DNA of 64,000 nt from Sphingobium herbicidovorans (lineage in GTDB: Bacteria; Pseudomonadota; Alphaproteobacteria; Sphingomonadales; Sphingomonadaceae). A program made the translations under genes and the position numbers. Under the pieces are notes generated by a model. The model did no database searches. It saw nothing but the letters and a program-made list of their open reading frames with translations, and was not told the origin of the DNA. This document shows positions 32,011 to 58,236 of this stretch, piece by piece; the stretch's first letter is position 1, and every line of letters starts with the position of its first letter. The stretch is taken from NCBI RefSeq assembly GCF_002080435.1, contig NZ_CP020538.1, forward strand, positions 1,674,001 to 1,738,000, read 5' to 3'.

Positions 32011-32367
32011 CGTCGTCCGGAGGAAGATTTGGCGTCCCCTGCGGGCCGCGCTCTGTTCCGCTTCGCTTCACCGAGCCAGCTTCGCCTGTCTCGTCCTTTC
32101 AGGCGACGATCGCTGACGCACGATCCCTGCTGGATCGTGACGGACATCGCTTAGGCGCGATGGCGTGGGCCCGGTCCGGACTGGCGGTGTGGGCGTCGCT
32201 TCCCTCTAGGCCCGTCGGGGCGAGCGGCAAGCCGGCCTGTGGCGCGGCTCCTTCACTGACGTTCCAGTCCTTGCGGATGCAGCTCGCCGCTTGTCCGGGC
32301 CTTCCGGTGCGCTCTTGCCGCCCACCCCGCCTTTCCGGGGTCCGGTGTCTGGCAAGGAGTAAGGAAG
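32011..32367. other. Non-coding stretch before parB, containing leader copy A
   Basis: No gene is seen. The right half is copy A of the repeated structured leader described separately (32183-32345). The left half contains TTCCGCTTCGCTTCACC-type GC-rich sequence and the block GGCGCGATGGCGT, which is also upstream of copy B. A purine-rich AAGGAGTAAGGAAG lies directly before the parB ATG. Confidence 0.6.
32183..32345 (+). repeat. Structured leader repeat, copy A (upstream of parB)
   Basis: First of three related non-coding segments. The outer arms are GGCGGTGTGGGCG (32183-32195) and CGCCCACCCCGCC (32319-32331), which pair with one mismatch across about 123 nt. Inside are CCCTCTAG and GATGCAGCTCGCC, both conserved in the other copies. 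It ends about 20 nt before the parB ATG. Confidence 0.6.
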
Positions 32368-34170
32368 ATGGAACTCAAGCATATCGACATTGCCTGCCTC
32401 TCGGTCTCGCCTGCGAACATGCGGGGCGTAAAGAAGGCACCGGACCTGACCAATATCCTGCCGTCCGTTCGGGCGCGGGGTGTCTTGGTGCCGCTGATCG
32501 TGAGACAGAATGGCAGTCCTACCACCTACGAGATTGTCGCGGGCAAACGGCGCTACCATGCCGCGCTGATCGTGGCGCAGGAGGAGGGGAGCGTTGAGCC
32601 GCTGCCTTGTGCCGTGATGGAGGCGGGGGACGACGCGGCGGCGCTGGAGGCGTCTCTGATCGAGAATATCGCCCGGCTCGATCCCGATGAGGTGACCCGG
32701 TGGGAGACGTTCACGCGGCTGGTCAGGGAAGGTCGGTCGCCAGAGGATATCTCGCTGACCTTTGGTTTGACCGCCTTGCAGGTGAAGCGGACGCTGGCCT
32801 TGGGCAATCTGCTGCCGCGCATTCGCCACCTCTATCGCAGCGATACGATCGACGCCGTGACCGTGCGGCATCTGACCCTCGCGTCCAAGGCCCGCCAGCG
32901 TGAATGGCTGGCGCTGCTGGACGATGAGGATGCGCGTCCGCCTATGGGGCATTATGTGAAGGCTTGGCTGCTGGGTGGCAGCGCCATCGCCACCGATAAA
33001 GCGCTGTTCGACCCGGCGGGCTATACCGGCGGGATCGTTGCCGACCTGTTTGGCGATCACAGCTATTTCGCCGATGTCGACCTGTTCTGGCAGATGCAGG
33101 AGGCGGCCATTGCCGAGAAGGTCGAAGCGTTACGCGACGCAGGGTGGCAGGATGTTGCCGTCATGGCGCGGGGTGATGCTTTTTATGCGTGGGAGCATGA
33201 GCGTTGCCCCAAGGCCAAGGGCGGGCGGGTCTATGTCAGCATGGGTCATGGCGGCGATGTCAGCTTTCATGAGGGCTATGTAACCCTCAAGGAGGCGCGC
33301 AGGCTGGAACAGGGCGGCAGCGTCGAGAAGGCGGTTCGGCCCGAACTCTCCGCGCCGCTGGCCAGCTATGTCGATCTCCATCGCCATGCCGCCGTGCGGG
33401 CTAAGGTCGCGGCTGCGCCAGCCATCGCCCTGCGGCTGATGGTCGCCCATGCCATTGCGGGATCGTCGCTGTGGCGCGTGGACGTCGCTTCACAGCGGGG
33501 CGCGAGTGATGCGGTCACCGAAAGCGTCGAGAATTGCGCATCGGAAGCGGATTTCGACAAGGAACGGCGGATCGCGCTCAACCTGCTGGGCCTCAATCCC
33601 GACACGCCGACCGTGACCGGCCACACCTATGATCGGGAGCTGATCCCGCTCTATCTGCGACTGCTCGACCTCGATGACGCCATGGTGATGGGCATCCTCG
33701 CCATCGTCATGGGCGAAACGCTGGAAGCGGGGTCGGCGCTGGTCGAACTGCTGGGCGTCCAGTTGAATATCGACATGGCTTCATGCTGGCAGGCCGACGA
33801 CGTTTTGCTGGACCTTATCCGCGACCGGGAAGTGATGGGCCATGTCCTTGCCGATGTGGCGGGGAAGGAAGCCGCGTCGGCCAATGCCGGGGCGACCGCG
33901 AAGGTGCAGCGGCAGATCGTGCGGGATTGTCTCGCCGGGACCAACGGCCGGGAGAAGCGGGAGGGCTGGGTGCCGCGCTGGATGGCCTTTCCGCCCTCGG
34001 CCTACACCGAGCGGGGCGGGATCGGCCGCGTCGAGCGGTGGGAAGCGGTCTCGCCGTTGCTCGAGGGGCAGGAGGCGCAGGAGCCCGAGCGGGGCGAACC
34101 GCAAACGGCGGATGCGACCGAGGATCATCAGAACATCGCGGAAGATGAACCCGTCCCGCAGGCTGCTTGA
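32368..34170 (+). CDS. ParB/RepB/Spo0J-family protein
   Basis: A 600-residue protein with an N-terminal ParB CTPase domain (LVPLIVRQNG, AGKRRYHAAL, SLIENIARLDPDEVTRWETF) followed by a ParB-type helix-turn-helix (DISLTFGLTALQVKRTLALGNLLP). The long C-terminal part is specific to large ParB-like proteins of mobile elements. It may act in element maintenance or regulation of transfer genes. No ParA is adjacent, so classical partition is unproven. The strong purine-rich site and leader copy A lie upstream; ardC follows about 470 bp later behind leader copy B. Confidence 0.85.
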   Translation: MELKHIDIACLSVSPANMRGVKKAPDLTNILPSVRARGVLVPLIVRQNGSPTTYEIVAGKRRYHAALIVAQEEGSVEPLPCAVMEAGDDAAALEASLIENIARLDPDEVTRWETFTRLVREGRSPEDISLTFGLTALQVKRTLALGNLLPRIRHLYRSDTIDAVTVRHLTLASKARQREWLALLDDEDARPPMGHYVKAWLLGGSAIATDKALFDPAGYTGGIVADLFGDHSYFADVDLFWQMQEAAIAEKVEALRDAGWQDVAVMARGDAFYAWEHERCPKAKGGRVYVSMGHGGDVSFHEGYVTLKEARRLEQGGSVEKAVRPELSAPLASYVDLHRHAAVRAKVAAAPAIALRLMVAHAIAGSSLWRVDVASQRGASDAVTESVENCASEADFDKERRIALNLLGLNPDTPTVTGHTYDRELIPLYLRLLDLDDAMVMGILAIVMGETLEAGSALVELLGVQLNIDMASCWQADDVLLDLIRDREVMGHVLADVAGKEAASANAGATAKVQRQIVRDCLAGTNGREKREGWVPRWMAFPPSAYTERGGIGRVERWEAVSPLLEGQEAQEPERGEPQTADATEDHQNIAEDEPVPQAA

Positions 34171-34179
34171 GCGAGACGC

Positions 34180-34270
34180 TGGCAGGCGGCGGTGACCTGT
34201 CGCCTGCCATTTCGCCATGACGCCCCCCCTTTTTGGGGGGATTGAAATTTTGCGGGCGGCGGAGCCGCCC
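34180..34270 (+). terminator. Hairpin cluster after parB (candidate terminator)
   Basis: Three consecutive perfect inverted repeats: TGGCAGGCG/CGCCTGCCA (34180-34209), a C6/G6 hairpin with a T5 loop (34224-34240), and GGGCGGC/GCCGCCC (34254-34270) followed by GGCTTCTT. Termination of parB is inferred; the T tracts are not canonical. Confidence 0.45.
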
Positions 34271-34448
34271 GGCTTCTTGGCAGCGAAACAAGGACCGCAG
34301 CTGAGACGAACTAACAGTTGGCTTTGTTGGGCGAACGTGCGCCACGGGAATGCGGAGCGCTGCGAAAGGCAGCGCGACGGGTCTGACAGCGGACACCGCG
34401 CGATGGGCGCGATGGCGTCTGGGCAATGTCTGATCGGCCAGTCGGCGC

Positions 34449-34620
34449 GGCGGGGGTGGGCGTCACTGCCCTCTAGTCCCCCCGCGGCGTGCCGCAAGTC
34501 GGGGCGATGCCCCAACTCCTCCACTCCTGTTGCGGCCCCCTGGGTGCAGCCCGCCTCATGTCGGTGGGCCTGCCGGTCCGCTCCTGCCGCCCACCCCCGC
34601 CACTCCGGCGGCCGGTGCGA
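34449..34620 (+). repeat. Structured leader repeat, copy B (upstream of ardC)
   Basis: Second copy. The 14-nt arms GGCGGGGGTGGGCG (34449-34462) and CGCCCACCCCCGCC (34588-34601) are fully complementary. The same internal CCCTCTAG and GGGTGCAGCCCGCC are present. The ardC ATG is at 34640 after an AAGGAGGAAGG ribosome site. Confidence 0.65.
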
Positions 34621-34639
34621 TGCGGGAAGGAGGAAGGAC

Positions 34640-35359
34640 ATGGGATATCAGGCCAAGACCGCGCGCGCAGGCGCTACCCTCTATAGCGAGGTGACCGACC
34701 GGATCGTCGCGCAGATCGAGGAAGGCATCCTGCCATGGGTGGGGCCATGGGATGATGGCAAGGCGGCGCTGGGCCTGCCGCGCAATGCCGGAACGGGGCG
34801 GCGCTATTCGGGGATCAATGTGCTGATCCTGTGGCACCGGTTGTTCGAGCAGGGCTATGGTTCGCAGCGCTGGCTGACCTACCGGCAAGCGCAGGCACTG
34901 GGCGGCAATGTCCGCAAGGGCGAGCAGGGTACGACGGTTTGCTATGCCGATAGGTTCACGCCCAAGGATGGGGAGAATATCCCGATCGGGCCGGATGGCG
35001 AGCCGCGACGGATTGCTTTTCTCAAGCGCTTTACCGTGTTCAACCTCGACCAGTGCGATGGTCTGGAGGACATGGCATCCTCCCCCGTCACGACATGGAA
35101 CAAGGCCCTCATCATCCCCCGCGCGCAGATGCTGATCGAGGCGACAGGCGCTGATATCCGGGTCGGCGGCGGGGAAGATTATGCCCCGCAGGACGATTAT
35201 ATCCACGTGCCCCGGCCCGAACATTTCCATGAGCCGATCAACTGGTTTCGGACAGCCCTGCATGAGCTGGGGCATTGGACGGGGCATCGTTCACGGCTGG
35301 ATCGTCTGCCCGATAGCGGCTTTGGCAGCCCCGCCTATGCGCGGGAGGAGCTGGTTGCC
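34640..35359 (+). pseudogene. ardC: ardC, first fragment (antirestriction protein, interrupted)
   Basis: 240 residues of an ArdC-type protein: the N-terminal ssDNA-binding domain (VTDRIVAQIEEGILPW, GRRYSGINVLILW, RKGEQGTTVCYADRF) and the zincin-like motif HELGH at 208-212. ArdC proteins protect incoming plasmid DNA. The normal sequence ends at EELVA, where the 10.1-kb transposon begins, and foreign codons run to a stop at 35398. The rest lies at 45454-45543 and 49447-49557. The rebuilt protein is about 305 residues, normal for the family. Confidence 0.85.
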
Positions 35360-35360
35360 T

Positions 35361-35373
35361 TATCTGGACAGTC
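35361..35373 (+). repeat. Left terminal inverted repeat of the mercury transposon
   Basis: TATCTGGACAGTC matches the reverse complement of the right end (TATCCTGACAGTC) at 11 of 13 bases. It sits one base inside the ardC junction. Confidence 0.7.
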
Positions 35374-35555
35374 TGCGCCGTCCGCAACATTGCAGTAAGG
35401 TCGGCGATGGACGCCCACGGTAGGCAGTAATCAGGCTGGCCGTAGCGCTGACCCAAGAGCTGGCGGAGGCCAGCCTGATAGCTGCCGGGCCATAGCGCGC
35501 ATCGGTGTGAAGGTCAGCTTCCGGGTGGGGGGTCCGGGGGGAGGGCTTCGCGCCG

Positions 35556-36905
35556 GTGTCGATCATTACTGTTTGCGAGCGTCGCGAGGCCAGGGGCCTC
35601 GATGCGCATGTGCCGCTGATCCAGCGCGACGACGCGCTCTACGATCCCGATCTGGATCGCTTCTTTCTCGACCTGCCGCTGTCGGGCGTCCGCTCGCGGC
35701 ACTCGCTTCGCGCCTACGCCTATGATGTCGTAGTCTGGCTTCGTTTTCTCGATGCCTGCGGCAAGACCGTGTGGGCTGCGACCCGCGACGATGTCGACGC
35801 CTATCATCGTGAGCGACGCCGCGACGATGCCGATCACCGGATAACGGCGGCAAGCTGGAACCGCGCCGTCGCCAGCCTCGATCGCCTTTACCGTTGGGGC
35901 GAGCAGCAAGGGTTGATCGCCGACGCGCCGTTCAGCCGCCGCGCCGTGTGGCGACCGGCGCAAGGTGGCCGTCGCGGCATGATCGCGGCGCGCAACGATG
36001 CCTATGAACGTGTCGCCAGGCGATCGGATGTCCGGTTCGTCACGATGGACGACTACCGCATTTTCCGCGAGGTCGGCCTGCGCGGGCTCACCCCTGACGG
36101 CACGGAGCGCCCCGGCGCTCGCGACCGTAATGGGCTGCGCAACGCGCTGTTCGCGGATCTTCTCGTCACCACCGGCCTGCGCCTCGAAGAGGCGTCGGGC
36201 TTGCTCACCGTCGAGCTCGCGGCGATCGACCGCGAGGACGGTGACGTCCAACAACTTTGGTTGCCCCTTCCGCCGCCGCTCACCAAGGGCGACCGCGGAC
36301 GCAGCGTTCTGGTCCCACGCCGGCTGCTTCGTCAGATCGCCGCCTATGTCGCGGTCGAGCGCGCCGCGGGCGTGGCCAAGTTCGCCGCGCGCGACGGTGC
36401 GGCCAGCTTCGACCGACCGATCCCTGTCACCCGCGCCGGTCTCGACCGCATGCGCGATATCTGCACCCCGGAGGAACGATGCCGCCTGATCCTGTGCGAC
36501 GAGGATGGAACGCCCCGCGAGCCGGCGGCGCTATGGCTGACCGAGGTCGGCCAGCCTGTCCGCCCCAACTCGTGGGAGGTGATCTTCACCCGCGCCTGCA
36601 AGCGGTGCGCACAGAACGGCTTCCCGCTGTCGATCAGCCCGCACCAGCTTCGCCACGCCTTCGCAGTCCATATGCTCGCCTTGCTGATCCAGCAGCGGCT
36701 GCGCGAAGCGGCATTGCCGGTGGGGCCGGTGGAGAGCTATCGGCTGATCCTGGGCGACCCGCTGCAACAGGTGCAACGCCTGCTTGGCCACGCCAGCCTC
36801 ACCACCACCTATATCTACCTCGACCATATCGCGACCCGCGCCGATACGGTGGACGCGGCCGTCGAGGAGCTGCTGGCGTTACTGCCGGGGCCGCAAGGCG
36901 TATGA
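35556..36905 (+). CDS. Tyrosine recombinase 1 of the large trio
   Basis: A 449-residue site-specific recombinase with GTG start and GGGGGAGGG just upstream. The N-terminal core-binding domain reads SLRAYAYDVVVWLRFLD. Catalytic residues are all visible: Arg in TTGLRLEEA, His-x-x-Arg in HQLRHAFA, His in LLGHASLTTTY and the tyrosine in YIYLDHI. This looks like the fully active member of the trio. Its stop overlaps the next start (ATGA). Confidence 0.9.
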   Translation: MSIITVCERREARGLDAHVPLIQRDDALYDPDLDRFFLDLPLSGVRSRHSLRAYAYDVVVWLRFLDACGKTVWAATRDDVDAYHRERRRDDADHRITAASWNRAVASLDRLYRWGEQQGLIADAPFSRRAVWRPAQGGRRGMIAARNDAYERVARRSDVRFVTMDDYRIFREVGLRGLTPDGTERPGARDRNGLRNALFADLLVTTGLRLEEASGLLTVELAAIDREDGDVQQLWLPLPPPLTKGDRGRSVLVPRRLLRQIAAYVAVERAAGVAKFAARDGAASFDRPIPVTRAGLDRMRDICTPEERCRLILCDEDGTPREPAALWLTEVGQPVRPNSWEVIFTRACKRCAQNGFPLSISPHQLRHAFAVHMLALLIQQRLREAALPVGPVESYRLILGDPLQQVQRLLGHASLTTTYIYLDHIATRADTVDAAVEELLALLPGPQGV

Positions 36906-38689
36906 GCGGGCGTCCCCGCAAGGGCCGGCCTGTCGCCTTTGCGCCGATCACGCCGGAGCGATCGCAGCCCGATCCTGTGCTCGGCCTCAAGTTCACCATC
37001 GAGGCGCGGCATGGCGGAACGGTCCTAGTCGATATGACCGGGCTCGATCCTCGCCCACTCGCCATCGCTTTCGCCGGTGCGCTGCGTCGATCGGCGGCGC
37101 TCGGCGGCCCCATCGGTGCGGCCAGCGTCATCAAGCAGTATGTTCAGGTCTATCGCCACTTCTTCGCCTGGCTTGGCGATGATGCGCCGGAGGTGACCGG
37201 CGTCAACGACCTGCGCGCAGTCCATATCGATGGCTTTGCGTCCGCGCTCGAACGGCGTGGGATGGGCGCGATCCACCGGCACATAACGGTCGGCAAGGTC
37301 ATCAACACGCTGCGCGCGATCGAGGCAGACCGGCCCGATCGGATCGCGCCCGACCTGCATGAGCGGCTGCGCTACACGCTGGCCACTTCGGCGGGCCGCT
37401 CGACCCCGCGCGATGCCTATAGCCCCTTCGTCGCCCGCGCGCTGCGCGACGCCGCGAGGGCCGATATCGAAGCGATGCTTCGCCGCCTCGGCGCCGACGA
37501 CCGCACTGATGAGGGCGACCCTGTCGTCGCCAGGGCGCGCGCCGATGTCGAAGCGATCATCGCGCGGCAGGGCTTTATCGTCGCAGACCAGCCCGCGCTG
37601 AAGCGCCTCTATTTCATGCGCATGCGGCGCGGATTGCCGATCAGCACGCTCATCGACGACCTGCATGGCCGCCATCATCTGCTCGCGCGCGATCTGCCGG
37701 CGCTGCTCGTGCTGCTCACGCTCGATACCGGCCTCGAGCCGGAGTGCCTGAAGACGCTGACCGTGGATTGTCTCACCAACCCGCATGCCGGCACGGTGGA
37801 GCTGCGCTATCTGAAGCGCCGCGCCCGCGGTGCCGAGCACAAGAGCATGCGGGTCCGCGATGGTGGTAGCGGCACACCCGGCGGCCTCATGCGTCGCCTG
37901 ATCGACGTCACCGCCGTCGCACGCGAGCATCTGACCGACGATTGCCTCTGGCTCTATCACAACGTTGGCGGCCTTCGCGCCGGCATCGTCGATCCCAAGT
38001 TCCAACTCGCCGCCTGGGCTCGTCGCCATGGTATCGCCGGCGATGATGGGAAGCCGCTCCATCTGCTGCTTTCCCGGCTGCGCAAGACCCACAAGGCGTT
38101 ATGGTACACCAAGACCGAGGGGCATATGGCCCGCTTCGCGGTCGGTCACACCCGCGAGGTTGCGGCGCGCCACTATGCCGATCTGCCGTCGCTCCGGCCG
38201 TTGCACGAGGCGGCCGTCGCCGATGCCTTCCGCGCAGCGGTCGCTGCGGCGATGCCGACCGTGCTTCCACCCACCGCCGAGCAGGCGCTGCGCGAAGCGC
38301 CCGAACAGGTCGCGTCGCTGATGTCGGCTGATACGGTGGGTCCGGTGCTCGACGGCGAACAGGATGTCTGGCTCGCCGCCTGCGCGGGCTTCCATAGCAG
38401 TCCTTTCGCCGAGCCCGGTTCGCCCTGCGCGCAGCCCTTCTGGGGCTGCCTCGATTGTCCCAACGCCGTCATCACCGCGCGCAAGCTCCCCGCGATCCTC
38501 GCCTTTCTCGCGTTCGTCGAAGAGCAGCGATGCAGCCTGCCGGCGAGCGACTGGGCCGCCAAGTTCGGCCGCGTCCACACCCGGATCACGGTCCAGGTCC
38601 TGCCGGTCTTCTCCGATGCCGTTATCGCCGAAGCGCGCCGGCAGATGGGGAGCGAACGGCTCTATCTGCCGCCGGAGGCACGCGCATGA
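36902..38689 (+). CDS. Tyrosine recombinase 2 of the large trio (degenerate active site)
   Basis: A 595-residue recombinase-like protein. The N-terminal part resembles a core-binding domain (IKQYVQVYRHFFAWLGDD). At the Arg I position it reads DTGLEPECL, so the catalytic arginine is replaced by E279. A later block has LSRLRKTHKAL, with Ser instead of the usual His, and GHTREVAARHYADL, with His and Tyr. A cysteine cluster (SPCAQPFWGCLDCPNA) may bind zinc. It probably acts as an accessory protein rather than a full recombinase. The ATG overlaps the preceding gene. A longer frame from 36257 is rejected. Confidence 0.75.
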   Translation: MSGRPRKGRPVAFAPITPERSQPDPVLGLKFTIEARHGGTVLVDMTGLDPRPLAIAFAGALRRSAALGGPIGAASVIKQYVQVYRHFFAWLGDDAPEVTGVNDLRAVHIDGFASALERRGMGAIHRHITVGKVINTLRAIEADRPDRIAPDLHERLRYTLATSAGRSTPRDAYSPFVARALRDAARADIEAMLRRLGADDRTDEGDPVVARARADVEAIIARQGFIVADQPALKRLYFMRMRRGLPISTLIDDLHGRHHLLARDLPALLVLLTLDTGLEPECLKTLTVDCLTNPHAGTVELRYLKRRARGAEHKSMRVRDGGSGTPGGLMRRLIDVTAVAREHLTDDCLWLYHNVGGLRAGIVDPKFQLAAWARRHGIAGDDGKPLHLLLSRLRKTHKALWYTKTEGHMARFAVGHTREVAARHYADLPSLRPLHEAAVADAFRAAVAAAMPTVLPPTAEQALREAPEQVASLMSADTVGPVLDGEQDVWLAACAGFHSSPFAEPGSPCAQPFWGCLDCPNAVITARKLPAILAFLAFVEEQRCSLPASDWAAKFGRVHTRITVQVLPVFSDAVIAEARRQMGSERLYLPPEARA

Positions 38690-40848
38690 CCACGCCCGTC
38701 CATGCCCTCGTGCCCGCGTTCGACGATCGCCCTGTGCTGGCGAGCGCGCCGCTCAAGGCGGGCCATGCCCGCGAGGAGCTGTCGCACGTCGGCGACCCGA
38801 CCTGGGATCTCGGTCCCGCCGTCTTCCGCGAGAACGCTCGGCGCTGCCACGTCACCGTGCATTTCGACGTGCTCGAACATGCCGATGTGCAGGCGGCAAT
38901 GCGCGCCTATCTCTACGCCCGCCTCAACGTCGGTCTTCCCGGCTACCACCCGAAGCTGCCGCCCGCCAGCATCCGACAGGCATTCAACCGGGCTCGCCGG
39001 TTCTTCGCCTTCGCGCGCGAGCGGCTTGGGCGGCTCGACCTGGGCCGCATCGATCAGGCGCTGATCGACGCTTATGCGCGCCACCTGCGGGATGATTCAG
39101 CGCGGCGCCCCGTCATCGTCGGCCAGCTCTTGCAGGTGGTCACCGATCTCTACCATCTCCGGGATCACCTGCCTGGAGGCGGTTTCGGGTTCGAGCCGTG
39201 GGCCGGGCAAGCGGCTGCGCGCGTCGCCGGATATCGGCATGTGCGCGAGAACCGCACCCCACGCATGCCGGAGGAGATTGTCACGCCGCTGCTCGCCTGG
39301 TCGCTGCGCTATGTCACGACCTTCGCGACCGATATTCTGGCGGCTCGGGTCGCGCTCGATCGGCTCGAGGCAGTCCGCGCTCGGCTGCTCGCCGCCGAAC
39401 GCGGACTGCCTGATGCAGAGCGCCGCCTGCGGCAGCGCGCGCGCCTCGAGCGCTATCTCGCGCGCCGAGCCCGGCAAGGACGCGGCGTGCCCATCTGGAC
39501 GACGGCACACAACGGCGCCACGCGCATCGATCCCCTCACCGGGGATGCAACCCCGCCGATCAACGCCCATCTCCTCCATTTGCATGCCGGCATCGATGCC
39601 GTCGCCGAGCCGGCCATGCATCTCATGCTCACTACCGGCGCACCGGATGTCATTCGCGAAGCGGTTGCATCGCTTGGTACCGAGGTCGGCGGCATGGACA
39701 CGCCGATCTCGATCGCTCCCGAGAGCGGTCGGCCATGGCGTGCCCGCTTCGACGTGAAGACCCTAGCGATCGAGGAGCGGATGCTGCAGGCCGCCGCCTA
39801 TATCGTATGCGCCTATCTGACCGGCATGCGCGACTGCGAGGTCCAGGCGATGCGGCGCGGCTGCCTCTCGATCGCGCGCAGCGAAGACGGCCTGATCGAG
39901 CGGCAACGCGTCCGATCGACCCTCTACAAGCGCCGATCGAGCGCCGGTGAGTCGGCGAGCTGGGTGACGATCGAACCGGTGGCCGAGGCGATCACGGTGC
40001 TCGAACGGCTGTCGGAACACGCGGCACGGAAGACTGGAAGCGACACGCTCTGGCCGGTGCTTCGTCCCCGCGCTGTCACCAAGACGCATCTGTCGAGCGA
40101 GGTGGTCCGCCAGCTCAACGCCTTCCGCGACCACCTCAACACCGTCTTCGGCAGCCCCGATGCGCCGGTCATCCCACCCGGCCCCGATGGCAAGCCGTGG
40201 CGCATCACGACGCGGCAGTTCCGGCGCACCATCGCGTGGCACATCGCCAACCGTCCGTTCGGCACCATCGCCGGCATGATCCAGTACAAGCATGCCTCGG
40301 TCGCCGCTTTCGAGGGCTATGCCGGGACCAGTGGATCGGGGTTTCGCGCAGAGGTCGAGGCGCAGCGCCGGCTCGGTCAGATTGACGATCTGCTGGACTA
40401 TTTCGACCGGCGGCAGGGCGGCGCATCACTCGGCGGACCGGCGGGACCACGCATCGCGCGGACCCTCGACGATGCCGCCGTTAAGCTCGGGCCACTGCCC
40501 GCCATGATCGCCGATCGGGCCCGCCTGCGCGTCATGCTCGCCAGCGTCGCGCGCACCTTCCATGTCGGCCCGCTCGCGGATTGCTTCTTCGATCCCGCGA
40601 CCGCGCTCTGCCTCAAGCGCGTGACGACCCCCGATCCCGCGCAGCCGCTTACCGCCCTGTGCGAACCGACCCGCTGCCCCAACGCCTGCATCACCGCCCG
40701 CCACAGACCGGCCTGGGAACGTGCGGCGGCCGATGCCCGGGCGCACTTACGCGAACGGCGCATCTCCGACCTCCAGCGTCAGGCGCTCCAGCGCGAGCTT
40801 GATCGCCTGACCGCGGTGATTGCCGGGATCGACCCTCCCGCGCCGTAG
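38686..40848 (+). CDS. Tyrosine recombinase 3 of the large trio
   Basis: A 720-residue protein overlapping the previous gene by 4 bp (ATGA). The N-terminal part has a core-binding segment (IRQAFNRARRFFAFARERL). The catalytic region has LTGMRDCEVQAM (Arg I present), RQFRRTIAWHI (Arg II), then YKHASVAAFEGYAG (His and Tyr). A C-terminal cysteine cluster (ALCEPTRCPNACITARH) matches that of recombinase 2 and may bind zinc. The large size suggests a role in synapsis or targeting. Confidence 0.78.
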   Translation: MTTPVHALVPAFDDRPVLASAPLKAGHAREELSHVGDPTWDLGPAVFRENARRCHVTVHFDVLEHADVQAAMRAYLYARLNVGLPGYHPKLPPASIRQAFNRARRFFAFARERLGRLDLGRIDQALIDAYARHLRDDSARRPVIVGQLLQVVTDLYHLRDHLPGGGFGFEPWAGQAAARVAGYRHVRENRTPRMPEEIVTPLLAWSLRYVTTFATDILAARVALDRLEAVRARLLAAERGLPDAERRLRQRARLERYLARRARQGRGVPIWTTAHNGATRIDPLTGDATPPINAHLLHLHAGIDAVAEPAMHLMLTTGAPDVIREAVASLGTEVGGMDTPISIAPESGRPWRARFDVKTLAIEERMLQAAAYIVCAYLTGMRDCEVQAMRRGCLSIARSEDGLIERQRVRSTLYKRRSSAGESASWVTIEPVAEAITVLERLSEHAARKTGSDTLWPVLRPRAVTKTHLSSEVVRQLNAFRDHLNTVFGSPDAPVIPPGPDGKPWRITTRQFRRTIAWHIANRPFGTIAGMIQYKHASVAAFEGYAGTSGSGFRAEVEAQRRLGQIDDLLDYFDRRQGGASLGGPAGPRIARTLDDAAVKLGPLPAMIADRARLRVMLASVARTFHVGPLADCFFDPATALCLKRVTTPDPAQPLTALCEPTRCPNACITARHRPAWERAAADARAHLRERRISDLQRQALQRELDRLTAVIAGIDPPAP

Positions 40849-41017
40849 ACCACCCCGGCTGTTGGCGGAGTCCTGCGCCGGTCGGCGCGCCCGCGCAACG
40901 GCTTCGCCGTCCTTCGCTTCGCTGCGGCCCTGACGGGTGCGCGAGCCCCCCTGTGCCCGGCGCGAACGGGCCTCCGCCGCCGGGGATGGTCCCCGGCGCG
41001 AGAACGGAGAACATATC
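40849..41017. other. Non-coding stretch before the second ardC
   Basis: 169 bp of GC-rich sequence containing CCGGGGATGG / CCCCGGCGCG-type inverted segments and an AGAACGGAGA site before the ATG at 41018. It has only weak likeness to the structured leader repeat. Confidence 0.35.
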
Positions 41018-41881
41018 ATGTCAGCCTCACCACGCTCAGACGTCTACGCTCGCGTCACGCAAGCGATCGTCGACGCCATCGAAGCCGGCACCGGCACCTG
41101 GCGCATGCCGTGGCATCATTTTGGCGCCGACGTCACCCGCCCGACCAACGTCGCCAGCGGCAAGCCCTATCGCGGCATAAATACGATCTCGCTCTGGGCG
41201 GCCGCCTATGGCAGCGGCTACGCGAGCGGGGTCTGGGGCACCTATCGCCAGTGGCAGGCGCTCGGCGCGCAGGTCCGCAAGGGCGAGCACGCCAGCCTCG
41301 GCGTCCTCTGGAAGGAGTTTCGCGCGAAGGGTGACGACGCCGGCGGCGATGACGACCATCGACGGCTTTTCGCCAAGGCGTTCAGCCTGTTCAACGCCGA
41401 TCAGGTCGATGGCTACGCGCCCGAACCGGCGCCGGACCTGCCTGAGAGCGAACGCCTCGCCGCCGCCGAAGCCTTCATCGCCGCGCTCGGCATCGATACT
41501 GTCTACGGCTCGGCCAGCGCCTATTATCATATCGCCGAAGACCGCATTCACATGCCGGATTTCAGCGCCTTCCACGATGCCCACGGCTTCTACGCCACCC
41601 ACATTCACGAAGCGGCTCATGCCAGTGGCGCAGCCCATCGGCTTGACCGGGATTTCAGCGCCAAGTGGACCAGGCACGCGCTCGCCATGGAGGAAGCGAC
41701 CGCCGAACTGACCGCATCGTTCCTGCTCGCCGATCTTGGGATCGCGCACGAACCGCGACCCGATCATGCGGCCTACATCGCCTCCTGGCTGCAACTGCTC
41801 AAGGACGAGCCTCGGGCGATCTTCACCGCGGCGAGCAAGGCGCAGGCGGCAGCCGACTGGATGCACGCCCGACAGCCGTAA
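41018..41881 (+). CDS. ardC: ArdC-like antirestriction protein (cargo copy)
   Basis: A 287-residue ArdC-type protein with the N-terminal binding domain (VTQAIVDAIEAGTGTWRMPW, YRGINTISLWAAAY, QVRKGEHASLG) and zincin motif HEAAH at 197-201 in place of HELGH. A downstream acidic segment (EEATAELTASFLLADLG) is complete. Only the general plan is shared with the interrupted backbone ardC. It probably protects the element from restriction after transfer. It is transcribed toward merR, which is on the opposite strand. Confidence 0.85.
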   Translation: MSASPRSDVYARVTQAIVDAIEAGTGTWRMPWHHFGADVTRPTNVASGKPYRGINTISLWAAAYGSGYASGVWGTYRQWQALGAQVRKGEHASLGVLWKEFRAKGDDAGGDDDHRRLFAKAFSLFNADQVDGYAPEPAPDLPESERLAAAEAFIAALGIDTVYGSASAYYHIAEDRIHMPDFSAFHDAHGFYATHIHEAAHASGAAHRLDRDFSAKWTRHALAMEEATAELTASFLLADLGIAHEPRPDHAAYIASWLQLLKDEPRAIFTAASKAQAAADWMHARQP

Positions 41882-41884
41882 TGC

Positions 41885-42307
41885 TCACGCGACCCGCACT
41901 TCGGCGCCAAGTGTGTCGAGCAGCGGACAGCCCGGATCCCGACCGGCATCGCAGGCGCGCACCGAGTCGGCCAGAACCCGTTCCATCCGCTTGAGGTCCG
42001 CGATCCGCGCGCGTACGTCCTTCAGGTGCGACGCCGCGAGCTCGCGCACCTCGGCGCAGGAGGCCTGACCGCCAACCGCGAGTCCGAGCAAGGCGCGTAC
42101 CTCGTCCAGGGTAAAGCCCAGCTCCCTCGCGCGGCGCACGAAGCCCAGGCGAGCCACGTCCTCCCGGCCATAGCTGCGGTAGCGGCCCCGCCGCGGCGGA
42201 GCGGGCAGCAGCCCGATCCGCTCGTAATAGCGGATCGTCTCGATGTTGCATCCGGTGCGGCGTGAGAGTTCGCCGATCTGGATCGCGCCGGTTGCGGCCA
42301 TCCCCAA
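41885..42307 (-). CDS. merR: Mercury-responsive regulator MerR
   Basis: A 140-residue MerR-family regulator with an N-terminal winged HTH (IQIGELSRRTGCNIETIRYYERIGLLP) and three cysteines for Hg(II), C84, C119 and C127, matching the usual MerR layout. It is divergent from merT, with the operator-promoter between them. It should repress, and with mercury activate, the mer genes by the DNA-distortion mechanism. An alternative start is 42301. Confidence 0.92.
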   Translation of the reverse strand: MGMAATGAIQIGELSRRTGCNIETIRYYERIGLLPAPPRRGRYRSYGREDVARLGFVRRARELGFTLDEVRALLGLAVGGQASCAEVRELAASHLKDVRARIADLKRMERVLADSVRACDAGRDPGCPLLDTLGAEVRVA

Positions 42308-42315
42308 AATACCTC

Positions 42316-42346
42316 TTGAGTCTGTAGTCGCTACAGATGTTAGGAC
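42316..42346 (+). promoter_or_regulatory. mer operator-promoter
   Basis: A -35 TTGAGT (42316-42321) and a TAGGAC -10 (42341-42346) are separated by 19 bp, the long spacing typical of MerR-controlled promoters. The spacer carries the dyad CTGTAG-TCG-CTACAG (42322-42336), the expected MerR site. Confidence 0.85.
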
Positions 42347-42375
42347 AGCTCAATGCCCGCCACAAGGAGTCGCCC

Positions 42376-42735
42376 GTGACCCAGACGCCAAGCCCGCCTA
42401 AGGGGATCGGCACCGCCACGCTCACGCTGGCGGGGATCGCTGCGGCGTTCGGCGTCGCCGCCTGCTGTGCGCTGCCGATCCTCTTCGCATCCGCCGGGAT
42501 CGGCGCAGCTTGGCTCGGCGGCGTGGCCATTGTCGCCGCGCCGTATCGCACGCCGCTTCTCCTCATTGGCGCATTGTGCCTGCTTGCCGGCGCGGCGCTG
42601 CTGTTGCGCCAGCAAGTTACGGCGGCGCGCTGTGGGCCGGGCGGCATATGCACGCCGCGCTGGATGCGTGTTCTCACGCTCATCGGATTGCTGCTCGGTG
42701 CGGCCCTGCTCTGGGCAGGCTATCGCTATGTCTGA
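42376..42735 (+). CDS. merT: Mercuric ion transporter MerT
   Basis: A 119-residue inner-membrane protein with three hydrophobic segments. The first contains the paired cysteines in AACCALPILFASAG, and the loop after segment 2 has CGPGGICTP. It takes up Hg(II) for reduction inside the cell. The GTG start at 42376 has an AAGGAGT site five bases upstream. No merP is adjacent. It overlaps the next gene by 8 bp. Confidence 0.9.
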   Translation: MTQTPSPPKGIGTATLTLAGIAAAFGVAACCALPILFASAGIGAAWLGGVAIVAAPYRTPLLLIGALCLLAGAALLLRQQVTAARCGPGGICTPRWMRVLTLIGLLLGAALLWAGYRYV

Positions 42736-42952
42736 TGCCACCCCCGAGCTGCGCTCGACGCTGACCTGTCCCCACTGCGGTCATCGGGCGACGGAGACCA
42801 TGCCGACCAATGCCTGCCAGTATTTCTACGACTGCCGGGGTTGCGGCGCGGTCCTCAAGCCCAAGCCGGGCGATTGCTGCGTCTATTGCTCCTACGGCGA
42901 CGTGCCCTGTCCGCCGATCCAGGAGAGCGGCGGCAAGGCGTGCTGCGGCTGA
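42728..42952 (+). CDS. GDCCVxC domain protein
   Basis: A 74-residue cysteine-rich protein: two CPHCG/CRGCG zinc-ribbon pairs, then GDCCVYCSYGDVPCPPIQ and a terminal CC. This family is known by the GDCCVxC motif, sometimes with selenocysteine, and is often near metal genes. It probably binds metal or is a redox partner. It could substitute for MerP in handling mercury, but that is inference. It overlaps merT and precedes merB by 12 bp. Confidence 0.8.
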   Translation: MSDATPELRSTLTCPHCGHRATETMPTNACQYFYDCRGCGAVLKPKPGDCCVYCSYGDVPCPPIQESGGKACCG

Positions 42953-42964
42953 GGAGGGCGGGCG

Positions 42965-43744
42965 ATGGCGCGCGCATCATCCGCTGAAGCCGCCTTTGGA
43001 TCGACGGTTACATTTCCCGGCGGTGCCGTTGTCCCGGACTGGAGCGCAGTCACAACACCCAGCGCCCGCGCAGCCCTGACGGCACTGTTCGCGGCGTTCA
43101 TCGGTTCGAAGTGGCGCGGGATGGACGGCGTCGAGGAGCGGGTCCGGCGCGCCGTGCTTCAAGCCTATGCTGCCGATGGTCGCTCGCCGGTGCCGGCACA
43201 GATCGCCGCCGCATCGGGACTCCCCTCCGGCGAGGTCGGCTCGGCCCTGCAGCGGCTCGCCGGGCGCGATCTCGTGGTCCTCGACGGCGCGGGCCGGGTG
43301 ACCGGCGCCTATCCGTTCACCGACGGCCCCAGCGAACATCAAGTCGAAGTCAGCGGAGTGACCATGAGCGCCATGTGCGCCATCGACGCGTTGGGGATCG
43401 GCGCCATGCTGGAGCGGGACTGCATGATCCGCTCGGCCTGCCGCCAGTGCCGGCGCACGCTCGCCATCCATACCCCCAGCCGCGGCCGCGAGCTGGAAGA
43501 GGTTGAGCCGGGCGCGATCGTCGTCTGGTCCGGCCGTCGCTATGCCAGTGGCTGCGCGGCATCGTCGCTCTGCACCTTGCAGGCCTTCTTCTGCGATGAC
43601 GATCATCTGGCGGCCTGGTGCGCGAGCGGTCCGGTCGGAGCCGATGACGGCATTCGTCTGTGCCTGGCCGAAGCGCTCGAGGTTGGGCGCGCGATTTTTG
43701 CGCCGATGCGGATGGAGATGCGACCATGGCTTCCTACGACCTGA
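42965..43744 (+). CDS. merB: Organomercurial lyase MerB
   Basis: Cleaves carbon-mercury bonds, giving Hg(II). The 259-residue protein contains the active pair C138 and D141 in MSAMCAIDALG and later cysteines C197 and C203 (GCAASSLCTLQAFFC), matching the C96/D99/C159 set of MerB. The block GAYPFTDGPSEHQV is also typical. Its N-terminus is longer than in most MerB. The stop lies inside the next gene, 19 bp past its start. Confidence 0.85.
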   Translation: MARASSAEAAFGSTVTFPGGAVVPDWSAVTTPSARAALTALFAAFIGSKWRGMDGVEERVRRAVLQAYAADGRSPVPAQIAAASGLPSGEVGSALQRLAGRDLVVLDGAGRVTGAYPFTDGPSEHQVEVSGVTMSAMCAIDALGIGAMLERDCMIRSACRQCRRTLAIHTPSRGRELEEVEPGAIVVWSGRRYASGCAASSLCTLQAFFCDDDHLAAWCASGPVGADDGIRLCLAEALEVGRAIFAPMRMEMRPWLPTT

Positions 43745-45075
43745 TCGTCATCGGCAGTGGCACGGCAGCGCAGGTCGCGGTCGGCCGGGTCCGTGCCGCT
43801 GGATGGTCCGTCGCCGTCATCGATCACCGTCCGTTCGGCGGCACCTGTGCGCTGCGTGGCTGCGATCCCAAGAGGATGCTGGTCAGCGGCGAGGAAGCGA
43901 TCGACGCGGCAAGGCGCATGGCCAGACATGGCGTCGACGGCACGCTGGCGATCGACTGGCCCGACCTGATGGCGTTCAAGCGGACCTTCACCGATCCGAT
44001 CCCCGCCAAGCAGGCGCACCGCTACGCCGAGCTCGGTGTCGACGCATTACACGGTGTTGCTCGCTTTGCCGGCCCAGACACGATCGTGGTGGAAGGCCGG
44101 ACATTGCGGGCCCGCCATATCCTGATCGCCAGCGGCGCGCGTCCAGTCCCGCTCGGCATTCCGGGCGAAGATCTGGTGAGCACAAGCGATGCGTTCCTGG
44201 AGCTTCAGGCCCTGCCGCGCCGGATCGTGCTGATCGGCGGCGGCTATGTCGCTGCGGAGTTCTCGCATCTGGCGGCCCGAGCGGGCGCAGAGGTCACCAT
44301 CCTACAGCGGGCCGAGCGGCTCCTGCCGCACTTCGATCCCGACCTGGTGGGCTGGCTGACGCCCCGGTTCGAGGCGCTCGGCATCCGCGTCGAGACCGGT
44401 GCCACCGTTACCCGGGTCGAGCGCAGCGGGAGCGGTCTGCTGGTCCACGCCGAGCGCCAGGGCGAGCCTGATCTCAGCGTCGCCGCCGATCTCGTCGTTC
44501 ATGCCGCCGGGCGCGGTCCTGACCTCAAGGCGCTCGACCTGTCCGCCGGCGAGGTGGCGGTGCAGGACGGGCGCCTGCAGCTCGACGCGCATCTGCGGAG
44601 CATTTCCAACCCGCGGGTCTATGCCGCCGGCGACGCTGCCGGAGTCGGGCCGCGGCTGACGCCGGTGTCCAGCCACGATGCCAAGGTAGTTGCCGCCAAC
44701 CTCCTGGATGGCCCGACGCACCAGCCGGACTATCGCGGCGTGCCGAGCGTGGCCTTCACTCTGCCGCCGATCGCCGCCGTCGGACTGTCAGAGGAGGCGG
44801 CGCGCCGCGGCGGCGTCGCGCTCCGGGTCAACGCAGCCTCGACGCCAGACTGGTTCACCGCCCGCCGCCTCGCCGAGCCGGTCTACGGCCATAAGCTGCT
44901 GATCGACGAGGACACGGACCTCATCCTCGGCGCGCATCTCGTGGGGCCGAACGCCGACGAGGTAATCAACGTTTTCGGTCTGGCAATCCGCCACGGCCTC
45001 ACCGCGGCCGATCTTCGCTCCACCATGTTCGCCTATCCGACCGGCGCCTCCGACGTCGGCTACATGCTGACTTAA
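43726..45075 (+). CDS. merA: MerA-like FAD/NAD(P) disulfide oxidoreductase
   Basis: A 449-residue flavoprotein of the glutathione reductase/MerA group. It has an FAD motif GSGTAA at 10-15, redox-active cysteines C41 and C46 in GGTCALRGCDPKR, the NADH-binding VLIGGGYVAAEF and a C-terminal interface (AFTLPPIAAVGLSEEAA). It lacks the N-terminal metal domain and the C-terminal vicinal cysteines of MerA (it ends GYMLT). It is named here from position after merB. Reduction of Hg(II) is likely but unproven, and another disulfide reductase role is possible. Confidence 0.75.
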   Translation: MASYDLIVIGSGTAAQVAVGRVRAAGWSVAVIDHRPFGGTCALRGCDPKRMLVSGEEAIDAARRMARHGVDGTLAIDWPDLMAFKRTFTDPIPAKQAHRYAELGVDALHGVARFAGPDTIVVEGRTLRARHILIASGARPVPLGIPGEDLVSTSDAFLELQALPRRIVLIGGGYVAAEFSHLAARAGAEVTILQRAERLLPHFDPDLVGWLTPRFEALGIRVETGATVTRVERSGSGLLVHAERQGEPDLSVAADLVVHAAGRGPDLKALDLSAGEVAVQDGRLQLDAHLRSISNPRVYAAGDAAGVGPRLTPVSSHDAKVVAANLLDGPTHQPDYRGVPSVAFTLPPIAAVGLSEEAARRGGVALRVNAASTPDWFTARRLAEPVYGHKLLIDEDTDLILGAHLVGPNADEVINVFGLAIRHGLTAADLRSTMFAYPTGASDVGYMLT

Positions 45076-45096
45076 CGCACGAGCGCCACTGCCATG

Positions 45097-45124
45097 GCGG
45101 CCGATCCCTCGCGCGATCGGCCGC
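45097..45124 (+). terminator. Strong hairpin after the merA-like gene
   Basis: GCGGCCGATC (45097-45106) pairs perfectly with GATCGGCCGC (45115-45124) with an 8-nt loop. No T tract follows, so it may stabilise the mRNA end. Confidence 0.45.
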
Positions 45125-45169
45125 TTCGCGATGCATGTCGATGCGGGCTGTCGCCCGCCATTAAGCGGA

Positions 45170-45198
45170 CGCCGCTTGCGCGGCGGCTCCGATTTTTT
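45170..45198 (+). terminator. Candidate intrinsic terminator of the mer operon
   Basis: CGCCGC-TTGC-GCGGCG (45170-45185) is followed by T6 at 45193-45198. A second hairpin, GCGGGC/GCCCGC, lies at 45143-45158. Confidence 0.5.
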
Positions 45199-45213
45199 GG
45201 CCTCTCCCTCGAT

Positions 45214-45370
45214 GCGGGAGTGGTCGGCGCTCCCTGCTAGGCCCGCCGCGGCGCGCTGCAAGCCTCGGCTTCGCCGGGCTGCTCCATTTCATTTCGCCCC
45301 TGCGGGTGCAGCCCGCCGCTTCAGCAGGCCTCTCCGGTCGCTCTCGCCGCCCACCCCCGCCTCGGGGGAG
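45214..45370 (+). repeat. Structured leader repeat, copy C (right end of transposon)
   Basis: Third copy. The 16-nt arms GCGGGAGTGGTCGGCG (45214-45229) and CGCCGCCCACCCCCGC (45345-45360) pair with two mismatches. Internal CCCTGCTAG and GGGTGCAGCCCGCC are retained. It is not followed by an intact gene. Confidence 0.6.
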
Positions 45371-45439
45371 GCCATGGGGCTTTTGGGCAGTGCTGGAGGC
45401 AACCGATGGTTTTCACCTTCCAACCGCCATTTTGGGCTG

Positions 45440-45452
45440 GACTGTCAGGATA
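45440..45452 (-). repeat. Right terminal inverted repeat of the mercury transposon
   Basis: GACTGTCAGGATA is the partner of 35361-35373; 11 of 13 bases agree after reverse complement. ardC resumes at the next codon. Confidence 0.7.
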
Positions 45453-45453
45453 T

Positions 45454-45543
45454 GTGGCCGAAATGGCGAGCGCTTTTCTCTGCGCGGAGCTGGGTATCGT
45501 GCCGACCGTGCACCACGCCGATTATCTGGGCGCATGGCTCGCC
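45454..45543 (+). pseudogene. ardC: ardC, middle fragment
   Basis: Thirty codons in register with the first fragment: VAEMASAFLCAELG then VPTVHHADYLGAWLA. This is the usual helical segment after HELGH. It is cut on the left by the mercury transposon and on the right by the RIT element; a stop codon (TAA at 45544) follows at once. The third piece is at 49447. Confidence 0.85.
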
Positions 45544-45566
45544 TAATGTCGAGCTGCCCATTACTC

Positions 45567-45654: not shown

Positions 45655-46656
45655 TCAGAGGGTATCGAGCCAGGCGAGCAGGCTCGCATCCCGCTTCCAT
45701 GACGGCTGACACGCTGCTGCTGGAACGCCGACGTGTTCGAGCGCCTTTCGCTTGGTTTCCAGATTGGCTTGGGCGTAGTGGCTGGTCGTATCGAGGCTGA
45801 CGTGCCCGAGCCAACTGCGGATGACGGTAATATCGACGCCGGACGAGACGAGGTGGACAGCGGTCGCATGGCGGAAGCTGTGCGGGGTCACGTGCTTCGA
45901 CCGCAGCGTGGGGACTATCTTAGCGGCGGCCTGGACGTATGATGCGAGTTTGAACCGTACACCCGATGCGCCAAGCGGTTCGCCATAGCGATTGACGAAG
46001 AGCCGATCGCTCGGTGCCCTTGGCTGCCTGTCCAAGAGTTTCTTCAACAACGTCACCGTTTCCGGCCAGAGCGGACTGATGCGTTCCTTACGCCCTTTGC
46101 CGTAAAGGCGCACGCAATGCGGCGCTTCGAACCGGATCGCATCGGGACGTAAATCGAGCGCTTCCTGGATGCGTGCGCCGCTGTTGTACAGGAAGGATAA
46201 CAGCGCGTGGTCACGCATTCCCTCCAGCGTTGATCGGTCGGGTTGTGCGAGGATCGCTTCGACCTCATTCGGCTCAAGATAACAGGGCGCAGGGATCGCT
46301 CCCCGTTTTATCGGGACGGCAAGAACCTCGGCGCATTGGGCGATATATGTTGGCTCTTTACCCGCCACGAAGCCGAAGAAGCTGCGGATGGCGGCAAGCC
46401 GGCAGTTGCGCGTGCCGATCGTGCCTTTCCGCTCATGTTCCGCATGGGCCAGGAACGCGCCGAGCTCACCGGCGGTGAGATCGGCCAGCGCAACCGCCGC
46501 TACTCCACCACCTTTTCGTGCAGCGACGAACCGGAGGAACAACCGCCAGGTGTCACGATAGGACCGGATGGTATGGACGGACGCGTTGCGCTGCTCGGCC
46601 AGCCACTCATGGAAGAAGGCGCGCAGCAGGGCGGGGAACGGATCGATCTTTCTCAT
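45655..46656 (-). CDS. RIT tyrosine recombinase, third gene
   Basis: A 333-residue recombinase with core-binding domain (VHTIRSYRDTWRLFLRFV) and complete catalytic set: Arg in NSGARIQEA, HSFRHATAV, LGHVSLDTTSHYAQ. The start at 46656 overlaps the preceding gene by 4 bp. The longer frame from 46839 is an overlap artefact. It is the shortest of the three proteins and the last in the operon. Confidence 0.9.
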   Translation of the reverse strand: MRKIDPFPALLRAFFHEWLAEQRNASVHTIRSYRDTWRLFLRFVAARKGGGVAAVALADLTAGELGAFLAHAEHERKGTIGTRNCRLAAIRSFFGFVAGKEPTYIAQCAEVLAVPIKRGAIPAPCYLEPNEVEAILAQPDRSTLEGMRDHALLSFLYNSGARIQEALDLRPDAIRFEAPHCVRLYGKGRKERISPLWPETVTLLKKLLDRQPRAPSDRLFVNRYGEPLGASGVRFKLASYVQAAAKIVPTLRSKHVTPHSFRHATAVHLVSSGVDITVIRSWLGHVSLDTTSHYAQANLETKRKALEHVGVPAAACQPSWKRDASLLAWLDTL

Positions 46657-51741: not shown

Positions 51742-52089
51742 ATGCGAACATTGTCGATCAGGATCAATGACGCCCTGCACCGCAGGCTGCGCCTTCGCGC
51801 CTATGGCGCCAATCTCTCCGTCTCGGAGTTCCTGCGGCCCCTCATCGAGGACGCCGCCGTCCCCGGTGGCCGCTACGCCTATACCGGCCAGGACGAACTG
51901 CTGGGCGTCGCGCTCCAGACCTACGCGCTGCTCGCGGAAATGGCGGCGCAGCAGTCGGGTGGCATCGTTGAACGGGCGCTCGCCGCCTCCCGCGCGATGT
52001 TGCGGGAGCGGGGGCTGCTCGACCCCGAAGAAGAGGCGGCGAGCGGCATGCGGCCCACCTTCCTGGGGAAGGAAGGTCGCGCGCCATGA
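51742..52089 (+). CDS. Ribbon-helix-helix mobilization/accessory protein
   Basis: A 115-residue protein. Residues 1-35 read TLSIRINDALHRRLRLRAYGANLSVSEFLR, a typical RHH DNA-binding fold as in plasmid mobilization and relaxosome accessory proteins. The rest is helical (LLAEMAAQQSGGIVERALAASRAM). It overlaps the coupling protein gene by 4 bp, so it probably works with it in DNA transfer. No relaxase is present in the window. The start at 51742 is preferred over a longer frame from 51595. Confidence 0.75.
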   Translation: MRTLSIRINDALHRRLRLRAYGANLSVSEFLRPLIEDAAVPGGRYAYTGQDELLGVALQTYALLAEMAAQQSGGIVERALAASRAMLRERGLLDPEEEAASGMRPTFLGKEGRAP

Positions 52090-54040: not shown

Positions 54041-54069
54041 CCTTATCATCCATGAAAGGACGTCATGTC

Positions 54070-54318
54070 ATGCACAGAATTACTCGCAACAGAGATTCCC
54101 GACTGGTAGCTGCGCCACCTTCGCCCGAGCAAAAGGATCATGTCATCGCACCGCTCAGCGTCCGTATCGCTATGGCGGTGAAGATGACCGGCATTGGCCG
54201 ATCCAAGCTGTATGAGCTGATCCAGGAGGGGGAGGTAGAGATCGTCAAGATTGGATCGGCAACGTTGATACCCATCGCTAGTCTTGAGCGATTGTTGGAG
54301 CGCCATAAGAAATGCTGA
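54070..54318 (+). CDS. AlpA/excisionase-like HTH protein
   Basis: An 82-residue protein whose C-terminal half is a helix-turn-helix of the excisionase type: IAMAVKMTGIGRSKLYELIQ then VKIGSATLIPIASLERLL. Such proteins control excision or transfer in integrative elements. An upstream start at 54052 gives six more residues. It may be the excision factor for the tRNA-Leu integrase at 22.3 kb, which is inference. Confidence 0.7.
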   Translation: MHRITRNRDSRLVAAPPSPEQKDHVIAPLSVRIAMAVKMTGIGRSKLYELIQEGEVEIVKIGSATLIPIASLERLLERHKKC

Positions 54319-58203: not shown

Positions 58204-58236
58204 CTATGATAGTCTGGACCACGAAGGGGACATTGA

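Follow-up and report, generated by a model that had tools for sequence, protein, structure and literature searches.

A covarying element ahead of parB and ardC in Sphingobium herbicidovorans as a candidate single-stranded-DNA promoter of the transferred strand

The 64,000-nt stretch of Sphingobium herbicidovorans DNA analysed here (contig NZ_CP020538.1, positions 1,674,001 to 1,738,000; in the following "the window") contains three copies of a structured element that stand ahead of parB or ardC sequence. The element is probably a Frpo-like promoter that would form on single-stranded DNA and permit the early expression of establishment genes during conjugation. Computationally, it is characterized by a covarying fold, by a preference of the complementary strand for this fold, by the agreement of strand with relaxase genes, by a fixed spacing of promoter-like hexamers and by its gene context, and promoter activity is what we infer from them. 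The first-pass annotation of the window had proposed three related elements that might be a leader RNA, a regulatory element or a transfer-linked site. The three elements exist at these places with slightly wider limits (Table 1), and of the suggested functions that of a transfer-linked regulatory element stands, whereas a leader RNA of the sense strand is not favoured.

The fold and the strand that carries it

The element is composed of an outer stem P1 of 12-13 bp, which corresponds to the outer complementary arms already recognized in the first-pass annotation, a stem P2 of AGGCCCGTCG type, a stem P3 of GGCGGGCTGCA/TGCAGCCCGCC type, a hairpin P4 that is located 3' of a near-invariant GCAA, a pyrimidine-rich unpaired linker, and a small hairpin P5. 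The internal blocks that the copies were said to share are present, the second inner block of copy 1 being GGATGCAGCTCGCC, and the three copies have a mean column identity of 76% when aligned. The linker between P4 and P5 (34518-34531 in copy 2) belongs to the best-conserved parts, with three positions at 99-100% in 67 representatives.

It had been claimed that the pairing potential is kept in spite of base differences, and this held in two alignments. The structure was read from a plain MAFFT alignment of 23 distinct sequences of the window's genus (A2), in which 91.1% of the cells pair, as compared to 83.8% in shuffles, and two-sided changes occur in 16 of 46 pairs; none of 500 shuffles reaches either value, and the number of pair types is equalled by 50 of the 500. 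The second alignment (A3) consists of 103 matches (98 distinct) to a covariance model, R1, that was built from 23 distinct sequences, and as these matches were fitted to R1, A3 leans towards the structure. In A3, 91.6% pair versus 78.9% in shuffles, covariation is 0.292 versus 0.089, and two-sided changes occur in 39 of the 46 pairs, values that again are not reached by any of 500 shuffles. When partners are slid by 1-3 columns, pairing falls to 40-47%. As single sequences, the sense strands of copies 1-3 fold as RNA moderately better than shuffles (z -2.87, -1.64 and -1.42).

The strand that was selected to fold can be deduced from the mismatches in the stems. RNA stems drift via G.U, which usually is their leading mismatch, and in DNA the better tolerated mismatches are G.T, G.A and G.G. 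In the sense-strand stems of 41 representatives that are more than 20% apart, we counted A.C 64 versus G.T 18, T.C 60 versus G.A 2, and C.C 32 versus G.G 7. As the A.C, U.C and C.C mismatches of the sense strand are G.T, G.A and G.G on the complement, it is most likely the complementary strand, i.e. the template strand of the gene, on which the fold was selected, and the leader-RNA reading is probably wrong about the strand. The mismatch counts omit one pair, columns 131-184, that the folding program drew as G-U in 84 of 98 rows; A59 and T184 are each present in 67/67 representatives, and it is more likely that these two pair with each other instead. The asymmetry does not stem from the hyperconserved P1 arm, because counts without P1 remain at 60 versus 16 (A.C/G.T), 60 versus 5 (T.C/G.A) and 22 versus 6 (C.C/G.G) in 54 representatives. 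Sequence by sequence (the same 54, without P1), C-mismatches are in excess in 45 and G-mismatches in 3, and A.C versus G.T alone gives 36 versus 7 with 11 ties. If each position and ordered type is counted only once, the ratio is 80 versus 20 at 20% separation (38 sequences) and 36 versus 7 at 30% separation (11 sequences). A tRNA control, which is small (11 predictions, 8 distinct), had G.T 10 and A.C 0.

Calculated with DNA energies, all 67 representatives have the more stable fold on the complement (mean -5.8 kcal/mol versus -2.0 in shuffles), and with RNA energies 55/67 do. The mean fold z is lower for the complement with both kinds of energies. As DNA, the minus strand has a z of -2.88 in copy 1, -3.63 in copy 2 and -3.73 in copy 3, and for copy 1 the folding strand would be this minus (template) strand.

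Transferred strand, hexamers and the proposed promoter

Relaxase genes were compared by hand in 80 of the 107 matching genomes of the window's family, on the same contig and within 40 kb. In 15 of 16 genomic cases, relaxase and element share a strand, namely in 7/7 cases with PF03432 relaxases, which are downstream each time, and in 8/9 cases with TrwC relaxases, three of which are downstream and five upstream; the latter are taken as integrated elements, with the circle closing the gap. In the plasmids that were inspected, the genes parB, ardC, ssb and DUF3768 mostly run one way, towards mobC and the relaxase, and all 17 matches of model R2 in ten plasmid stretches (oriented by their main match) are on one strand. 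In pHSL3, a relaxase remnant is on the element's strand, but upstream, and no relaxase was seen in the stretches L297 and L298. The position of nic is less firmly supported. On the minus strand before the mob genes (genes on plus), a nic-like YATCC(T/G)GY is present in four of five plasmids (pCFD-2-3, S. baderi unnamed4, pEP2 and pHSL3), including two with the strict form YATCCTGY (pCFD-2-3 and pHSL3), and the plus strand of this gap has a nic-like YATCC(T/G)GY in 0/5. The relaxases and nic-like sequences of these relatives suggest that it is the template strand of the genes behind the element that is transferred.

On the folded strand, one arm carries a TTGCNG-like hexamer, 16 nt, and a TANARG-like hexamer, and only when the single strand is folded do these face the gene. 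In the 100 rows of A3 that have at least 160 nt (three shorter rows were dropped), TTG is found in 98 and TTGC in 96, all 100 have the 16-nt spacer, and of the -10 features A at -11 occurs in 98 and TANA in 74. In 50 representatives, a simple sigma-70 score reaches a z of +2.99 on the folded arm relative to mononucleotide shuffles and is not above shuffles on the element's sense strand (z -0.9); a signal in the 200 nt upstream, of sigma-70 type only, is at shuffle level (z -0.22). A regular-expression check of the spacing found both motifs in just 88/158 sequences, because the -10 varies, and 85 have 17 nt between CTAG and GCAA. The RpoD consensus of Caulobacter is given as TTGaCgS / GCtANAWC (PMC8144410).

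The element probably acts as a DNA structure of the transferred strand and not primarily as RNA. During conjugation, the template strand of parB and ardC would arrive in the recipient in single-stranded form, and it could then fold into a rod of ~35 bp that consists of P1, an internal loop, P2 and P3, and at whose end a three-way junction bears the small hairpins P4 and P5. Such a rod would mimic double-stranded promoter DNA, with TTGC(A/G/C)G and TANARG, 16 nt apart, on the arm that serves as non-template strand, and with a template arm that leads into the gene; the called start codons mostly lie 4-20 nt past the model end. The host RNA polymerase would bind and start inside the rod, and parB, ardC and similar establishment genes could be transcribed before second-strand synthesis. 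After conversion to double-stranded DNA, expression would be expected to stop, because the same hexamers then point away from the gene.

This proposed mechanism has much in common with the Frpo/ssi (ssi, single-strand initiation) sites of F, ColIb-P9 and related plasmids. They likewise stand ahead of establishment genes that include anti-restriction genes, their transferred strand folds to a stem-loop in which -35 and -10 boxes are restored (in the present element the fold is predicted and the boxes are candidate ones), they are inactive as double-stranded DNA, which is a prediction for the present element, and they occur in more than one copy per element, F having Frpo1 and Frpo2 (PMC9849209). 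Unlike the 328-bp Frpo region (PMC7690428), the present element has ~175 nt with a three-way junction, it is found in alphaproteobacterial hosts, and it is GC-rich. Copy 1 had no blastn match in 20,395 E. coli records (published Frpo sequences were not aligned to it directly), and as no similarity was found in these records, we do not class the element as a member of the Frpo sequence family. The EGeRS of pLS20 plasmids are repeated elements ahead of establishment genes as well, and the describing paper names ardC 37 times; there, the nicked strand is the non-template strand, and the authors consider single-strand promoters highly unlikely (PMC8708921). In contrast, wherever a nic-like sequence was found for the present family, it is on the template strand.

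Among the papers listed in our literature searches, mainly open-access ones and judged by titles and abstract openings, none describes an element of this kind from Sphingomonadales or from Alphaproteobacteria in general. The single-strand promoters described in the sources at hand come from enterobacterial plasmids, and the published scans mainly used BLAST to a few known sequences, one of them with a consensus-box search in four islands (PMC11541004, PMC12826799). If our reading is true, zygotic gene expression would be extended to Alphaproteobacteria, and ParB- and ArdC-type proteins together with DUF3768 would be indicated as early-acting genes. A covariance-supported family with a strand-polarity test could serve as search model for further members, and mismatch polarity may be a general means of telling single-strand DNA elements from RNA elements. 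A more far-reaching version is tentative: the conjugative elements of Alphaproteobacteria could have their own family of single-stranded-DNA promoters, unrelated in sequence to Frpo, in which the three-way junction and the conserved unpaired linker constitute a dedicated recognition module, and the transposon described below could carry promoter and new start codon at its right end, so that an interrupted establishment operon would keep its early expression after each jump.

Several observations weigh against a promoter on the transferred strand. With the pair 131-184 kept, the totals on the 98 rows are G.U 121 and A.C 137. With DNA energies, the complement is favoured in shuffled sequences too, by 2.0 kcal/mol, and the strands of copy 1 fold near equally as DNA (-48.5, z -2.88, versus -46.0, z -2.64, for the plus strand). 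The -10 hexamer is unpaired in the internal loop and has no T at -7, the -35 hexamer straddles the three-way junction, and diverged members keep TTGC, followed 15-17 nt on by CAGGAC, CAGGAA, CAGATC or less. As to transfer, the nearest relaxase found is more than 200 kb away from the window's element on its contig, and the strand evidence is that of relatives; in one TrwC case, G192, element and relaxase are on opposite strands, the relaxase being a truncated piece, and since the plasmids and genomes are related to each other, the orientation cases are not independent. In pHSL1, neither the strict nor the widened nic pattern matches in the gap before the mob genes. This pattern was widened after the strict form had missed two plasmids, and as these two share one sequence and the strict form matches in two, the nic support amounts to two to three independent cases, with ~0.1 chance nic-like matches expected per gap (from whole-stretch counts). 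Finally, the E-values of the models are rough.

Alternative functions of the element

The element could in principle be a single-strand initiation site (ssi/sso) of the transferred strand, at which a hairpin primes second-strand synthesis and for which the place before genes is secondary. Mismatch polarity, energies and relaxase orientation fit such a site as well, in distant members the conserved junction and the unpaired linker outlast the -10 region, and Frpo is reported to do both jobs (PMC7690428). However, priming alone requires neither a position mostly 4-20 nt ahead of start codons of a narrow set of genes nor several copies, which are possible per element here, and it would not explain that the hexamers keep a fixed promoter spacing. 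We therefore consider an initiation site unlikely.

A leader RNA of the sense strand, i.e. a riboswitch-like or ParB/ArdC-autoregulated structure in the 5' untranslated region, would be in agreement with the strong covariation, with the position right ahead of a Shine-Dalgarno-like sequence, and with a fold of the sense strand that likewise surpasses shuffles (mean RNA z -1.98 in 67 representatives). A conserved covarying structure ahead of start codons is also common to cis-regulatory RNAs in Rfam, but here the folding strand is the complement, and no family matches: at gathering level, the whole window gave a tRNA only and nothing at the copies, a search up to E 10 gave nothing around copies 1 and 2, and at copy 3 it gave a single chance-level microRNA match (E 0.66, 18 bits versus a cut-off of 71). 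With G.U rarer than A.C in the sense-strand stems (the one G-U column pair left out), a complement that is more stable even with RNA energies, and an upstream sigma-70-type score at shuffle level, a leader RNA appears rather improbable.

An antisense structured RNA, read off the complementary strand and directed away from the gene, would be compatible with the complement being the strand selected to fold, but its promoter would have to sit within the starts of unrelated genes (parB, ardC, DUF3768), and G.T and G.A are about equally frequent on the complement, unlike in RNA stems where G.U usually leads; such an RNA is very improbable. A double-stranded protein-binding site or cruciform (operator, partition or integration site), as might be suspected from the inverted-repeat character and the mobile context, has hardly any probability, as no strand preference is then expected, yet the mismatch asymmetry is strong and the orientation to gene and start codon is fixed. 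The readings as integron attC-like site or as cruciform were rejected on context and strand polarity, and a terminator was rejected by eye, as there is no T run 3' of the element. Two further ideas, an anti-Shine-Dalgarno pairing of the pyrimidine linker with the ribosome site and an alternative hairpin that overlaps the 3' arm of P1, were weighed by eye and lost weight in view of the strand evidence.

Distribution, neighbouring genes and the transposon in ardC

By pattern search, 16 of 100 relatives have the element, and all of these belong to the window's genus (the own genome is included in this and the following counts). R1, with up to six candidates scored per genome in the family scan, matches 107 of 397 genomes of the window's family, spanning 40 of 96 genera. 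It matches 8 of 385 genomes of the class, the other seven being distributed over seven families, with some weak or partial matches, and 12 of 299 genomes of a phylum sample, all 12 of which belong to the window's class. Outside the window's family, the element is rare in the class. Blastn matches were obtained in 14 plasmid records for copy 1, nine for copy 2 and 18 for copy 3, with Sphingobium, Rhizorhabdus, Novosphingobium, Sphingomonas, Tardibacter, Mesorhizobium, and Paracoccus, the latter over just 19% of the query. At least four further matches are present in the same genome beyond the window (up to seven scored). A contig pattern scan gave 114 stretches, including Actinomycetes and others that are likely chance matches, and it served for names only. 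For L015, L027, L032 and G060 (Sphingobium sp. DEHP117), an identical 51-nt core was noted at six places of one genome, and it is suggested that this core type spreads with a mobile element.

Of 158 element hits (some of these loci overlap), 61 are followed by an ArdC N-terminus, 52 by one of two ParB types and seven by an ArdC C-terminal fusion; homologues are thus found upstream of similar genes, with ArdC- or ParB-type starts behind at least 120 of the 158. The gene motifs left 38 hits uncalled, many of them, as judged by eye, because the script picked a wrong-frame open reading frame (ORF). Weaker copies stand directly ahead of DUF3768 genes in two plasmids (L179:16226-16400 and L296:32349-32523), and DUF3768 would therefore be a candidate early gene. 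In the window, copies 1 and 2 stand directly before parB and ardC, as the first-pass annotation had it, ending 9 nt and 11 nt short of the start codons. Copy 3, which had been placed inside the transposon, is at its right end with a start codon 20 nt further on, and because this transposon is inserted in ardC, copy 3 also precedes ardC sequence.

Table 1. Features of the window. All three copies were in the seed of R1.
Feature	Position	Strand	Remarks
Copy 1 of the element	32180..32358	+	R1 149.4 bits, R2 130.8 bits
-10-like hexamer TAGAGG, copy 1	32203..32208	-	internal loop, 16 nt from -35
-35-like hexamer TTGCCG, copy 1	32225..32230	-	folded-strand arm
ParB-like protein behind copy 1	32368..34170	+	600 aa; Pfam ParB_N 2.3e-13
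Copy 2 of the element	34447..34628	+	R1 127.2 bits, R2 117.5 bits
-10-like hexamer TAGAGG, copy 2	34470..34475	-	
-35-like hexamer TTGCGG, copy 2	34492..34497	-	
ardC, N-terminal part	34640..35398	+	broken off by transposon after ...YAREELVA; Pfam ArdcN 9.2e-41 and partial MPTase-PolyVal
Transposon integrase	35556-36905		
Diverged core ahead of the transposon's own ardC	40892..40943	+	junction, hairpins and linker only; R2 31 bits, E 4e-4, model positions 45-99
Transposon's own complete ArdC	41018..41881	+	ArdcN and MPTase-PolyVal on ORF 40937-41881; start codon picked by eye
Copy 3 of the element	45211..45385	+	R1 112.3 bits, R2 117 bits
-10-like hexamer TAGCAG, copy 3	45234..45239	-	
-35-like hexamer TTGCAG, copy 3	45256..45261	-	
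Short ORF	45406..45546	+	translation: transposon-end start MVFTFQPPFWAGLSGYV running into residual ArdC C-terminal codons AEMASAFLCAELGI

The diverged core ahead of the transposon's own ardC is also present in relatives. Such smaller diverged versions (the one in Table 1 and those of L074, L075 and L089-L091) precede ArdC-type or other genes, and as they keep mainly the junction, P4, the linker and P5, they suggest a function of the junction core in its own right.

The transposon spans 35399-45405, the break in ardC being set by comparison with the uninterrupted ArdC of L025. Besides its own ArdC, it has two large ORFs without Pfam match, which by order are the "hypothetical protein" and the "integrase" of plasmid records, and mercury genes that code for MerB and a pyridine nucleotide-disulphide oxidoreductase. 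Starts that are like MVFTFQPPFWAGLSGYV occur in L035, L037, L052, L059, L127, L133 and L155; the residual ArdC after copy 3 itself ends early. A like arrangement of integrase genes, an ArdC-type gene, and the element and/or an ArdC-type remnant is found in Rhizorhabdus, Mesorhizobium, Tardibacter and other Sphingobium plasmids. By description, the closest named elements having three integrases are the GInts (PMC5385486).

The ArdC remnant is directly followed by three overlapping genes for tyrosine recombinases on the minus strand (45655-49306), each with Pfam Phage_integrase. This trio may be a recombinase-in-trio element. A TraD-type gene of the window's element is at 52086-54215, and at 56561-58243 on the minus strand a thymidylate-synthase-like gene lies beside that of an alpha-glutamyl/putrescinyl thymine pyrophosphorylase, both of DNA hypermodification families.

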